A stretch of 36,718 bases of DNA from an uncultured Myxococcales bacterium. GTDB taxonomy: Bacteria > Myxococcota_A > Polyangia > Palsa-1104 > JAEUJZ01. Each line of letters starts with the position of its first letter. Position 1 is the first letter of the stretch. The stretch covers positions 1-36,718 of the forward strand of contig CALMML010000382.1 of assembly GCA_937868485.1 (NCBI GenBank), read 5' to 3'. A program made the position numbers and the translations under genes. The notes under the pieces were generated by a model. That model did no database searches. It saw only the letters and a program-made list of their open reading frames with translations, and was not told the DNA's origin. Below are positions 71 to 3,790 of the stretch, one piece after another.

Positions 71-616
71 TTAGTTGTCTCGTCCGAGACGCTCTCGGAT
101 GGTGGCGCGGGTCGCTTTGTCAATCTGGGGTCGCGGCTTTTGGTCGATCTGACGAGGCTCAGTCGGCGCTTTGAGACTCTCGTCTCGCTTGCCGTTGTCT
201 CGAAGCTCTTTGGCCGTTGCTCTCAGCTCTTGGCGAATCGCTTCACGGATGCGTCGCTCCGCTTGCTCGGTCGCCTGCGTCAGATCGGGTCGATGTTCCT
301 TCGCTTCCGTGCGAGCCTGACCCGAAAGTCCCTCGCGGAGCTGACCCGGATTCGTCGGTCGAACGTCATCTTTGGGCTCAACCTGGCGATTCGTCGGTTC
401 GCGCAGCTCCGCCGGTCGAGTGGGCGGATTCACAGGACCTTTCGTCGGTAAGCGCGGCGCTTTGGCTGGATCATCAACCACTGTCACCGTCGAATACGTT
501 CGAACTTGCGGTGGCTTGGTCGCTTCTTTGTCCTTCGCTGGCGAGCTTTGAGCCAGCGCTGCGCTCGTCAGACACAGCATCAGCCCGACGGAACTTACAA
601 AAAGACGCGCACTCAT
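71..616 (-). CDS. Small secreted charged protein of the ECF sigma operon
   Basis: I do not recognise a family. The 181-residue product starts with a clear signal peptide (hydrophobic stretch about residues 4-20, ending SAALAQ). The mature part is low-complexity and very hydrophilic: Pro/Lys/Arg-rich to about residue 100, then a helix-prone segment rich in Glu, Arg and Ala (around RRIREAIRQELRATAKELR). It is likely periplasmic and largely disordered or helical. The ATG at 616 overlaps the stop of the anti-sigma gene in an ATGA, so the two are translationally coupled. A longer frame reaches 760 but would lie inside the anti-sigma gene and bury the signal peptide, so I rejected it. As the third gene of a sigma/anti-sigma operon it may sense or respond to envelope stress; that role is inferred only from position. 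Confidence 0.75.
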   Translation of the reverse strand: MSARLFVSSVGLMLCLTSAALAQSSPAKDKEATKPPQVRTYSTVTVVDDPAKAPRLPTKGPVNPPTRPAELREPTNRQVEPKDDVRPTNPGQLREGLSGQARTEAKEHRPDLTQATEQAERRIREAIRQELRATAKELRDNGKRDESLKAPTEPRQIDQKPRPQIDKATRATIRERLGRDN

Positions 617-1320
617 GACGGAACGACCTCGAGGAGCACTTCGTGACGGACGGTGACATCGCGGCCTTTGGCGTGCGCGGTGACTCGATAGCGACCGGGA
701 CGAATGCCGCGAACAGCGACGGGAACGGGATTGGATCCAACAGAGAGTGAGCCTTTCCACGCAATCTGTCTTTCGGGAATGGCTGCACCTCCGTCGACAA
801 ACTCTAGCTCGCCGGGCAGGCTGACCTCGAACTCGACATCATCGACGGAAACGTCCGCGACAAAGTCGAGCTGAACCACCGCGACGCGCTGACTGGGAAT
901 CCGAAACGACGCAGCGACGGTTTCTTCGGGCACGAAGACGCGCGCGGTGGCTTCTCCTCGCTGACGAAGGGGAACGAGCAGGAGCGTGACGATTGCAACC
1001 GCGAGCGCGGCACCAGCCAGCAGCCTCGGTGGACTGTCAAAGCCAACGCGCTCTAAAAACCACCACAGTCGCGTCGTCAGCGGCAGCTTCGGAGGCGGCT
1101 GCGCGCGCAGCTTTTCGTGAAGCGCTCGCTGGAAATCCGACGGAAGTTGTAGCTGTTTTCCTGCCTCGCGCAGCAGTCCGACCGTCTGACGAAGCTCTGT
1201 CAGGTGTTGCTGACAATCGGGACAATCGGCCAGATGCGCTTCGACTTCGGTTCGACTCGGGCGTGACAACTCTCCACTGAGCAGCGACGGTAGAAGCTTG
1301 TTGCAGTCCGCGCACTTCAT
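613..1320 (-). CDS. Zinc-finger anti-sigma factor, membrane-anchored
   Basis: The 235-residue protein has an N-terminal zf-HC2-type anti-sigma domain: C3 and C6, then the diagnostic H29-x3-C33-x2-C36 zinc site. A linker follows, then one transmembrane helix at about 99-118, then about 115 residues outside the membrane that look like a beta-sandwich (alternating hydrophobic strands, FEVSLPGELEFVDG). In this family the cytoplasmic zinc domain holds the cognate ECF sigma factor until a signal reaches it through the membrane part. Start and stop overlap the neighbouring genes by ATGA at both ends (1317-1320 and 613-616), so sigma, anti-sigma and the third secreted protein should be made together. 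The signal sensed cannot be read from the sequence. Confidence 0.9.
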   Translation of the reverse strand: MKCADCNKLLPSLLSGELSRPSRTEVEAHLADCPDCQQHLTELRQTVGLLREAGKQLQLPSDFQRALHEKLRAQPPPKLPLTTRLWWFLERVGFDSPPRLLAGAALAVAIVTLLLVPLRQRGEATARVFVPEETVAASFRIPSQRVAVVQLDFVADVSVDDVEFEVSLPGELEFVDGGAAIPERQIAWKGSLSVGSNPVPVAVRGIRPGRYRVTAHAKGRDVTVRHEVLLEVVPS

Positions 1321-1916
1321 GATCTTTTTCCTTCGCCGAGGCCGCCTTTGGCGAGCAGCACTTCACGCAGCGCTTCTCGTCCACGATTGAGCCGAGACTT
1401 GACGGTGCCGACCGGTGTCTCGACGATGGCTGCCACTTCTTCGTAGCTCATCCCCTGAATGTCGGCCAGTACCAGCACGCTGCGATACGCTTCGGGAATC
1501 TCGGCCAGCGCGCTCCAGAGCTGAGACTTACGCTCGTGCGCCAAGAGCACCGCTTCGGGATTGCTGGTCGCTTCGCCCATGTCGCGCTCTGGCGTGGCAT
1601 CCAGCGGCTGTTCTCGCTTTCGTTCTTTGCTGCGTCTGCTCTTGGCGTGATCGAGAACGATGTTGCGCACAATCCGAAACATCCACGTCTGAAGCGATGA
1701 CTGGAAGCGGAAGCCGCCCAGTGATCGATAGATCCGCAGCATGGCATCTTGCGTCACGTCGCTGGCTAGCTCTGGGTCGCTGACAAACGCGCGCGCGAAG
1801 CTGTGGATCTTGGTCTGATACATCGCCATCAGACGCTCAAACGCAGCGATGTCACCGAGTTGAGCTTGGCTGATCAGTGCTGCGACATCGGGGCCGCTGG
1901 CTGATTCATCGCTCAC
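1317..1916 (-). CDS. ECF-family RNA polymerase sigma factor
   Basis: The protein has sigma region 2 (about residues 20-92, including DVTQDAMLRIYRSLGGFR and FQSSLQTWMFRIVRN) and region 4 with its helix-turn-helix (about 130-187, GMSYEEVAAIVETPVG then TVKSRLNRGR). No regions 1 or 3 are present, as expected for the ECF group (199 residues). I chose the GTG at 1916 because GGAG lies six bases upstream and the protein then starts just before region 2. An in-frame ATG at 1988 would add 24 Arg/Pro-rich residues, has no ribosome site and lies only about 15 bases from the -10 element at 2005-2008. The gene overlaps the anti-sigma gene by ATGA. The promoter at 2005-2030 has the ECF pattern, so the factor probably activates its own operon. 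Confidence 0.92.
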   Translation of the reverse strand: MSDESASGPDVAALISQAQLGDIAAFERLMAMYQTKIHSFARAFVSDPELASDVTQDAMLRIYRSLGGFRFQSSLQTWMFRIVRNIVLDHAKSRRSKERKREQPLDATPERDMGEATSNPEAVLLAHERKSQLWSALAEIPEAYRSVLVLADIQGMSYEEVAAIVETPVGTVKSRLNRGREALREVLLAKGGLGEGKRS

Positions 1917-2004
1917 GCTCGGCTCCGCGCTGGGTCCGGGCCGGTCTGCGGTCCTGGGACGGATGGGAAGTCGCACGGCTGCATGCATGGGGCTTGGTCA
2001 GTGA

Positions 2005-2030
2005 GACGAGGCGCGCGGGCCGTTGGTTCC
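2005..2030 (-). promoter_or_regulatory. Candidate ECF-type promoter of the sigma operon
   Basis: On the minus strand GGAAC (2030-2026) is followed by exactly 17 bases and then CGTC (2008-2005), with T before CGTC. This is the classic ECF -35/-10 pattern. It lies upstream of the sigma gene, with a leader of about 80 bases to the GTG at 1916. The same elements with the same spacing occur on the plus strand at 2184-2209. The pattern match is seen; use by this sigma factor is inferred. Confidence 0.6.
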
Positions 2031-2138
2031 AGACCGTCGCTTGTTCGGTGGCGATCGGCTGTTTGAGCGAACCCACAAGCATGAGCAAGGCGCACATCTT
2101 ACCCGCAATCAGCAGAGAAAGCGCACGAACAATAACCT

Positions 2139-2167
2139 ATTTAAGTGTATTTTCTAATACATTTCAA
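2139..2167 (-). promoter_or_regulatory. Possible housekeeping promoter with inverted repeat in its spacer
   Basis: In an AT-rich patch unlike its surroundings, the minus strand reads TTGAAA (2167-2162), 17 bases, TTAAAT (2144-2139), close to a sigma-70 promoter pointing at the sigma operon. The spacer contains the inverted repeat TGTATT-N4-AATACA (2146-2161), which could be an operator. AT-rich patches produce such matches by chance, so confidence is limited. Confidence 0.35.
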
Positions 2168-2183
2168 AGGATGCGAGTTTGTC

Positions 2184-2209
2184 GGAACAAAGGTCTGGGC
2201 TGTTTCGTC
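2184..2209 (+). promoter_or_regulatory. Candidate ECF-type promoter of the helical secreted-protein gene
   Basis: GGAAC (2184-2188), a 17-base spacer and CGTC (2206-2209) reproduce the elements found on the other strand at 2005-2030, including the A-rich bases after GGAAC and the T before CGTC. A transcript starting near 2216 would carry a leader of about 55 bases to the ATG at 2273. The promoter therefore points at the secreted helical-protein gene, diverging from the sigma operon. Confidence 0.6.
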
Positions 2210-2272
2210 AGACCTCGCAAAACGGCTCGCTCAACCCTGAACTGAATCACTGAGCCATAGGAGGAACCCAAG

Positions 2273-2788
2273 ATGCGAACGAACAATAAGGCGGCTTTCA
2301 CTTTTGCGATGGGAATGATGCTGGGCGCTCCGGTTGCGTTTGCGCAGACCGTGGCAGCACCGGCTCCGGCACCGAGCGCTCCGGCACCGGGCGCTCCGGC
2401 ACCGGCTGCTGATGTGAAGGCGGGTCGTGCAGAAGTGAAGGCTGGCAACGCGCAGATTGCTGCGGACAAGGCTGCCATCAAGGCTGATCGCGCCGAGATC
2501 AAGGCCGACAAGAAGGAAATTCAGGCCGATAAGAAGGAAATCCGCGAGGACAAGAAGGCGCTCAAGGATGCGCGCGCCACGGGTGACAAGGAAGCCATCA
2601 AGGCGGCCAAGGCGGAGCTCAAGGCGGACGTCAAAGAGCTGAAGGCCGACAAAAAGGAGCTGAAGGCCGACAAGAAGGAACTTCAGCACGACAAGCGCGA
2701 GATGAAGCACGACGTCAAGGAAGCCAAGCGCGATGCCAAAGATGCCAAGCGCGACGCCAAAGATGCTGCCAAGCCTGCGGCTCCGTAG
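2273..2788 (+). CDS. Secreted Lys/Asp/Glu/Ala-rich single-helix or coiled-coil protein
   Basis: The 171-residue protein has a signal peptide (about 1-24, ending VAFAQ), a Pro/Ala linker built of APAPS/APAPG units (about 26-46), and then a long, almost uninterrupted charged helix made of degenerate seven-residue units of the type KADKKEL, ending in KRDAKDA repeats. The helical part has no Cys, no Pro and no aromatic residues. Charged i to i+4 pairs suggest a stable single alpha-helix or a coiled coil. It is likely periplasmic or exported; a structural, spacer-like or desiccation-protein-like role is possible, but I recognise no named family. AGGAGG lies nine bases before the ATG. The ECF-type promoter at 2184-2209 suggests control by the adjacent sigma factor. 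Confidence 0.8.
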   Translation: MRTNNKAAFTFAMGMMLGAPVAFAQTVAAPAPAPSAPAPGAPAPAADVKAGRAEVKAGNAQIAADKAAIKADRAEIKADKKEIQADKKEIREDKKALKDARATGDKEAIKAAKAELKADVKELKADKKELKADKKELQHDKREMKHDVKEAKRDAKDAKRDAKDAAKPAAP

Positions 2789-3455: not shown

Positions 3456-3704
3456 ATGAAGAAGCTTTCCACCCTGTTCGCGTTCGCCTTCGCTCTCTCG
3501 CTCACCGCTCCGGTTCTCGCCGAAGAGACCGCCAATGCCCCCGCCAAGGAAGAGAAGGGCGCCGGCGAGAAGAAGAAGGAAGAGAAGAAGCCTGAGAAGA
3601 AGACCGTGAGCGCGGCCAACGACGAGGCGAAGGCCGAGAAGGCTGAGAAGCCGGCCAAGAAGGGCAAGAAGGCCGCCAAGGAAGAGAAGAAGGAAGAGAA
3701 GTAG
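3456..3704 (+). CDS. Tiny secreted Lys/Glu/Ala-rich protein
   Basis: The 82-residue product has a textbook signal peptide (MKKLSTLFAFAFALSLTAPVLA, cleavage about 22/23). The remaining 60 residues are almost only Lys, Glu and Ala with a few Pro and Gly (KEEKGAGEKKKEEKKPEKK and similar). It has no Cys and no recognisable domain. It should be disordered or helical in the periplasm. TAGGAGA precedes the ATG by seven bases; an in-frame upstream extension to 3357 hides the signal peptide and was rejected. A strong terminator follows at 3760-3790, so this is probably a monocistronic, possibly abundant transcript. Its composition resembles the secreted helical protein at 2273-2788, but no ECF-type promoter was found here. 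Confidence 0.75.
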   Translation: MKKLSTLFAFAFALSLTAPVLAEETANAPAKEEKGAGEKKKEEKKPEKKTVSAANDEAKAEKAEKPAKKGKKAAKEEKKEEK

Positions 3705-3759
3705 TCTCTCCTTCGACTGACAACACGTAGGCTTCCTACGTAAAGTTGGTCGCAAAAAA

Positions 3760-3790
3760 GCCTGCTCCAGCGATGGAGTGGGCTTTTTTT
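3760..3790 (+). terminator. Rho-independent terminator after the small Lys/Glu protein gene
   Basis: A 10-bp stem pairs 3760-3769 with 3774-3783 (two G-T wobbles) around the loop GCGA and is followed by seven T (3784-3790). Six A at 3754-3759 precede the stem, so it could also act leftwards. It lies about 55 bases after the stop at 3704. Confidence 0.9.

Follow-up and report, generated by a model that had tools for sequence, protein, structure and literature searches.

The question raised by this locus is whether two promoter-like elements, which point away from each other between a sigma operon and a gene for an exported helical protein, are read by the sigma factor encoded next to them, and which genes this sigma factor controls. 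The two sites are very probably the on-switches of one sigma factor for its own gene and for the neighboring exported helical protein. The circuit is of the ordinary ECF kind; new are the promoter definition, the wider target set and the unusual, predicted helical-hairpin output. For an ECF sigma factor of an uncultured Myxococcota lineage, the closest named relatives of which are Myxococcales metagenome-assembled genomes, this yields a predicted promoter code as well as a list of testable targets. The window, i.e., the whole stretch of 36,718 nucleotides analyzed here, belongs to genome G000 (6.36 Mb). Orthologs of the operon are present in G001 and G002 of the same genus, in G003 and G004 of the same family and, more distantly, in G031 and G035. 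The features of the locus are collected in Table 1.

Table 1. Features of the sigma locus, in positions of the window.
Feature	Position	Strand	Sequence or evidence
Sigma-operon promoter, ECF-type (putative)	2005..2030	minus	GGAACCAACGGCCCGCGCGCCTCGTC; conserved in G001, G002, G003, G004, G035
Boxes of the sigma-operon promoter	-35 GGAAC 2030-2026; -10 TCGTC 2009-2005	minus	16-nt spacer
Hairpin-gene promoter, ECF-type (putative)	2184..2209	plus	GGAACAAAGGTCTGGGCTGTTTCGTC; conserved in G001, G002 and at the G003/G004 homologs
Boxes of the hairpin-gene promoter	-35 GGAAC 2184-2188; -10 TCGTC 2205-2209	plus	16-nt spacer
Exported Lys/Asp/Glu-rich protein (hairpin protein)	2273..2788	plus	Signal-peptide-like start, Ala/Lys/Asp/Glu-rich body; no Pfam match
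Shine-Dalgarno AGGAGG of the hairpin-protein gene	2259..2264	plus	Sequence; AGGAG conserved in G001, G002
ECF sigma factor, sigma-2 and sigma-4 only	1317..1988	minus	Pfam PF08281, PF04542; NCBIfam sigma70-ECF above cut-off
Membrane anti-sigma factor	613..1320	minus	Pfam zf-HC2 38.1 bits, above cut-off; NCBIfam antisigma below cut-off
Third operon gene, exported charged low-complexity protein	71..616	minus	ORF; conserved stretch like RTYSTVTVVDDPAKAPRLP
Perfect palindrome TGTATT-TTCT-AATACA	2146..2161		TGTATTTTCTAATACA; conserved in G001, G002

The two sites and the sigma operon

The original prediction had described a pair of GGAAC-N17-CGTC elements, one on each strand, and both were found exactly as stated with a 17-base gap in each. 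They are the only exact N17 matches in the 36.7-kb window, and a scan with gaps of N15-19 gave two further GGAAC/CGTC matches with shorter gaps. The A-rich bases said to follow GGAAC are common to both sites (GGAACcAA and GGAACaAA). The claim of a common preceding T had to be given up, as the base before GGAAC is T at the minus-strand site but C at the plus-strand site and is not shared in register. Directly before CGTC a T is found at both sites, and the shared motif is therefore longer, i.e., GGAAC-N16-TCGTC. The transcript of the sigma operon is predicted to start at ~1998 on the minus strand with a leader of ~10 nt, and that of the hairpin gene at ~2216 on the plus strand.

The sigma factor is composed of regions 2 and 4 only, connected by a short linker (PF04542, residues 53-118; PF08281, residues 155-206). 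Against the NCBIfam equivalog model of RpoE (ECF02, TIGR02939) it scores 124.5 bits where at least 236 are required, and judged from its sequence it is an RpoE-like ECF factor and not RpoE itself. The sigma-4 recognition helix VGTVKSRLNRGRE was aligned with sigma-E and sigma-H structures, and its segment GTVKSRLNR corresponds in the alignment to GTVRSRIFR of E. coli sigma-E, for which the contacts R176, S172 and R171 were reported for -35G, -34G and -31C (PMC3397946). The sigma-4 domain of the window keeps the Arg and the Ser contacting the two G of GGAAC and has a Lys as the third residue (R171); Lys-Ser-Arg-Leu is invariant across all sigma orthologs (7/7). Moreover, comparison of the regions upstream of orthologs and targets points to recognition of an AAC-type -35 and a CGT-type -10 element, as is characteristic of ECF members.

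The sigma stop codon shares bases with the start codon of the anti-sigma gene, and the start of the third gene overlaps the anti-sigma stop. Because the sigma and anti-sigma genes overlap, they are probably co-transcribed; their order is the same in G001-G003, G031 and G035 and is split in G004. Positive autoregulation of the operon from its own conserved promoter is predicted. In the anti-sigma factor a ZAS-like zinc-finger region with HLADCPDC at the N-terminus is followed by one hydrophobic helix and by a C-terminal domain predicted to be all-beta. The HxxxCxxC motif in the N-terminal domain, which suggests a factor of the ZAS type, is kept in G001-G004 and G035 and is absent from the G031 anti-sigma. 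A structural model of no more than moderate confidence (pTM 0.40) has helices in its N-terminal part, then a membrane-type helix and a beta domain (residues 138-233), and a fold search gave generic beta-sandwich matches only. For the third-gene protein no Pfam match was found; a stretch like that given in Table 1 is also present in the downstream gene of G003 and G004 and weakly in that of G031. Export of the operon and plus-strand proteins was read from the sequence without a dedicated predictor.

Classical autoregulated systems of an ECF sigma factor and a membrane anti-sigma factor are those of E. coli sigma-E and B. subtilis sigma-W (reviewed in PMC8103513). Like these, the window encodes a sigma-2/sigma-4 protein with an overlapping anti-sigma gene and has a promoter with an AAC-type -35 and a CGT-type -10 element upstream of the operon itself and of a small number of targets. 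Unlike these, its sigma factor falls below the NCBIfam cut-off for RpoE and for any other named ECF equivalog shown, the anti-sigma periplasmic domain and the targets differ, and a near-leaderless sigma mRNA is predicted. The -35 element of E. coli sigma-E is GGAACTT, and CGTC is a -10 element of ECF promoters (PMC3397946). Both the GGAAC and CGTC boxes and the Ser and Arg contact residues of the recognition helix are thus shared with sigma-E, whereas the motif of the window has a fixed T before CGTC, i.e., N16 to TCGTC, and a weaker preference for A after GGAAC where sigma-E has TT. In ECF41 systems (PMC3426412), too, the sigma gene and a single adjacent target share one promoter motif, in which the spacer has 16 bases and CGTC is present; however, these systems are characterized by TGTCACA and a fused C-terminal domain, whereas in the system of the window the promoter has GGAAC, the anti-sigma factor is a separate protein and there are more targets.

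Conservation in related genomes

The original prediction would not have held if the two motifs were not conserved in relatives retaining the sigma gene. This check was passed, as G001 and G002 have both promoters. When G001 is compared with the window, the identity of the 16-base spacers is only at chance level (0.19 and 0.25), and all ten box bases are fixed (10/10). GGAAC-N16-TCGTC is found 6-16 bp upstream of the sigma start in all five genomes of the family with a sigma ortholog, e.g., 15 bp before the start in G003 and 6 bp before an ATG in G004. In G035, a member of another family, the motif is located ~27 bp before the likely start, and upstream of the G031 sigma gene no copy was found with at most one mismatch allowed.

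The hairpin genes of the five genomes holding the window-type sigma factor carry the motif without exception (6/6). In G003 two hairpin genes, located on contigs C151 and C154, are unlinked to the sigma operon on C14, and the exact motif is present at both, 51 and ~80-90 bp upstream; with 36 exact sites in 9.2 Mb of this genome the chance is ~3e-4 per gene. In G004 the sigma and hairpin genes form a divergent pair on C170 with the motif at each, and the anti-sigma and third genes are found on C138 with their own motif copy. As each fragment has a copy, the parts apparently kept a promoter when the operon came apart, and a split operon with a promoter on each piece is a clean natural indication of the genes the sigma factor must control. 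Both places of this natural split of an ECF operon (C170, L129; C138, L089) are inside long contigs.

Other regulators, other sigma factors and chance

Next to the ECF motif, the palindrome located 22 bp upstream of the hairpin-gene -35 element might control the hairpin gene. TGTATT-N4-AATACA is perfect, is conserved in three genomes and occurs in two places in the whole genome compared to zero for the reversed control; it is probably the operator of a second regulator, and its conservation suggests that the hairpin gene is probably under another regulator too. It could even be that this regulator mainly controls the gene and that the ECF promoter is a minor input. However, the G003 and G004 hairpin genes lack the palindrome yet keep the ECF motif, a sigma-70-type promoter was not found there, and palindrome and ECF inputs can coexist, making such a subordinate role of the ECF promoter unlikely. 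The palindrome is part of an A+T-rich island with a local A+T content of up to 0.80, and other copies are also intergenic (G000:C153, G002:C64, G003:C5). An inverted repeat AGGTCTG/CAGACCT overlapping the plus-strand promoter was discarded, as it is not conserved in G001.

Alternatively, the sites might be genuine ECF promoters, with transcription of the hairpin gene and of the unlinked targets depending on a paralogous ECF sigma factor, or several of them, and with the adjacent sigma factor sharing these promoters only in part. At least ten further sigma matches of the ECF type were counted in the genome, and GGAAC/CGTC-like boxes are common to many ECF groups. However, the motif precedes the window-type sigma gene in five genomes as well as the split-off anti-sigma gene of G004, and in G000 the ten other sigma genes of the ECF type that were found all lack it just upstream. 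Moreover, hairpin genes with the motif are present in all genomes having the sigma factor (5/5), whereas G010 has a hairpin gene and neither a matching anti-sigma gene nor the motif. We therefore regard control by a paralog as very improbable.

Whole-genome counts of the motif were dropped as evidence. In G000 the GGAAC-N17-CGTC form is found 135 times compared to 143 for the reversed control, and the 10-base form GGAAC-N16-TCGTC 52 times compared to 47, i.e., there is no over-representation and the count alone is no evidence. For any one gene, the probability that a coding-strand site lies at most 160 bp upstream by chance is ~6.5e-4. Among the exact sites in G000, 7/52 are intergenic and at most 150 bp upstream of a same-strand start, compared to 3.1% of random window positions (P~0.001) and ~1.6 of 52 sites expected by chance. 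Pooling six genomes and leaving out the seeding sigma and hairpin pairs resulted in 17/171 compared to 5.4 expected (P~3e-5), which is a rough value since the counts were assembled by hand and the null is from one window. Sites with a base other than T before CGTC, used as control, are all inside genes (27/27). Neighborhoods were read for almost every exact site of G000 and G002 and for most of those in G001, G003, G004 and G005. That the two sites are chance, i.e., two short consensus-like strings in a G+C-rich genome, would agree with counts equal to the reversed control but is already contradicted by the conservation data, namely by the footprint within the genus and the recurrence of the motif before unlinked homologs in other genera, as well as by the intergenic enrichment, and its probability is negligible.

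Taken from the comparison of sequences, it is highly probable that both sites serve the ECF sigma factor of the window as promoters, driving its own operon, the hairpin gene and unlinked genes of exported proteins. An envelope signal would relieve the inhibition by the zinc-finger anti-sigma factor, and the freed sigma factor would bring RNA polymerase to GGAAC-N16-TCGTC. It would thereby raise its own operon and the divergent hairpin-protein gene, and moreover a few unlinked genes encoding a CxxCH protein and a lipoprotein with a beta-lactamase fold, to which sister genera add a cytochrome c/copper monooxygenase. The motif, the targets and the autoregulatory and divergent layout are supported by these comparisons, while the sigma/anti-sigma mechanism and the positive feedback would follow by analogy from the protein families.

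The hairpin protein and the wider regulon

The plus-strand output was originally described as an exported Lys/Asp/Glu-rich helical protein. Its helical nature stands in the predicted model; its shape has to be amended, as the prediction is of two antiparallel helices (residues 45-103 and 106-165) that form a hairpin rather than one rod. AlphaFold2 on a seven-sequence alignment gave block means of 87-96 over residues 61-160, and the turn Gly104-Asp105 joining the helices is invariant in this alignment. The family was found in 7/144 genomes of the class. A fold search in the PDB returned generic coiled-coil shapes only (E 0.15 or worse), no Pfam profile, those of Spy/CpxP and Metal_resist included, matched the hairpin protein or its G003 homolog, and the G004 homolog has a weak OmpH match only.

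Proteins of the Spy, CpxP, ZraP and CnrX type are small exported periplasmic helical proteins under envelope-stress-type control. The hairpin protein resembles them in being small, exported, helical and, by analogy, under control of the envelope-stress type; it differs in lacking those Pfam matches and in its long uninterrupted heptad-like charged helices. It might be a periplasmic protective or chaperone-like protein. A more specific reading is that it represents a new periplasmic family with two roles within a copper/heme-linked ECF regulon, namely protection of the envelope, perhaps through binding of copper-stressed or unfolded proteins, and feedback on the anti-sigma beta domain; this we consider quite unlikely. 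Downstream of the hairpin gene, the window encodes a further small exported Lys/Glu-rich protein (3456-3701) with no ECF motif upstream, followed by a strong terminator-like hairpin (3754-3789). An identity of this protein as HvfA was rejected, as the score of 18 compared to a cut-off of 95 was read as low complexity.

Of the originally proposed wiring, autoregulation and the adjacent target are supported by the conserved promoters. The single-protein output is not; as far as the motif sites indicate, the output of the sigma factor is a small envelope regulon of exported proteins. The gene of the secreted CxxCH protein is present in 3/28 genomes (G000, G002, G003) and has the motif in each (3/3), with spacer identities of 0.50 and 0.31 between genomes. 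For the beta-lactamase-fold lipoprotein, the motif is found in G000 and G002 with a spacer identity of 0.56. Among the sites read in G001, only the two cis sites were found and no further targets. The targets L154, L023 and L177, which were found in a single genome, may be chance matches; the putative target L023 scores 27.9 compared to the Metal_resist cut-off of 29.2.

The orthologs of the cytochrome c/copper type II monooxygenase in G003, G004 and G005, i.e., in three other genera, have the motif 3-24 bp before the called start, and in G005 it is also found upstream of an MbnP-MbnH-type gene pair (L267 1449-3347). In the genus of the window the monooxygenase was rejected as a target, as its orthologs sit behind another gene and lack the motif, and MbnP was rejected as a core target, as the motif is present only at the G005 copy and absent from the MbnP genes of G000 and G002. 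Since the motif precedes these genes in other genomes but not in this genus, copper or redox is a lead and not a result. The regulon may have its role in envelope stress, perhaps with a connection to copper or redox, and the recurring link to the cytochrome c/copper monooxygenase offers a concrete hypothesis for the stimulus. In G010 (L132) the hairpin gene (2373-2726) immediately follows a cytochrome c/copper monooxygenase gene (850-2202), without an ECF motif.

A second exported helical protein, rich in Arg and Glu (G000:C112, L265 4451-4816), has the motif 62 bp upstream and scores just under the Metal_resist (PF13801) cut-off. Finally, the gene of an outer-membrane efflux protein (G000:C379, L262 5820-9713) has the motif 78 bp upstream and is followed by genes resembling those of a VTC-domain protein, a small membrane protein and an HlyD-like protein.
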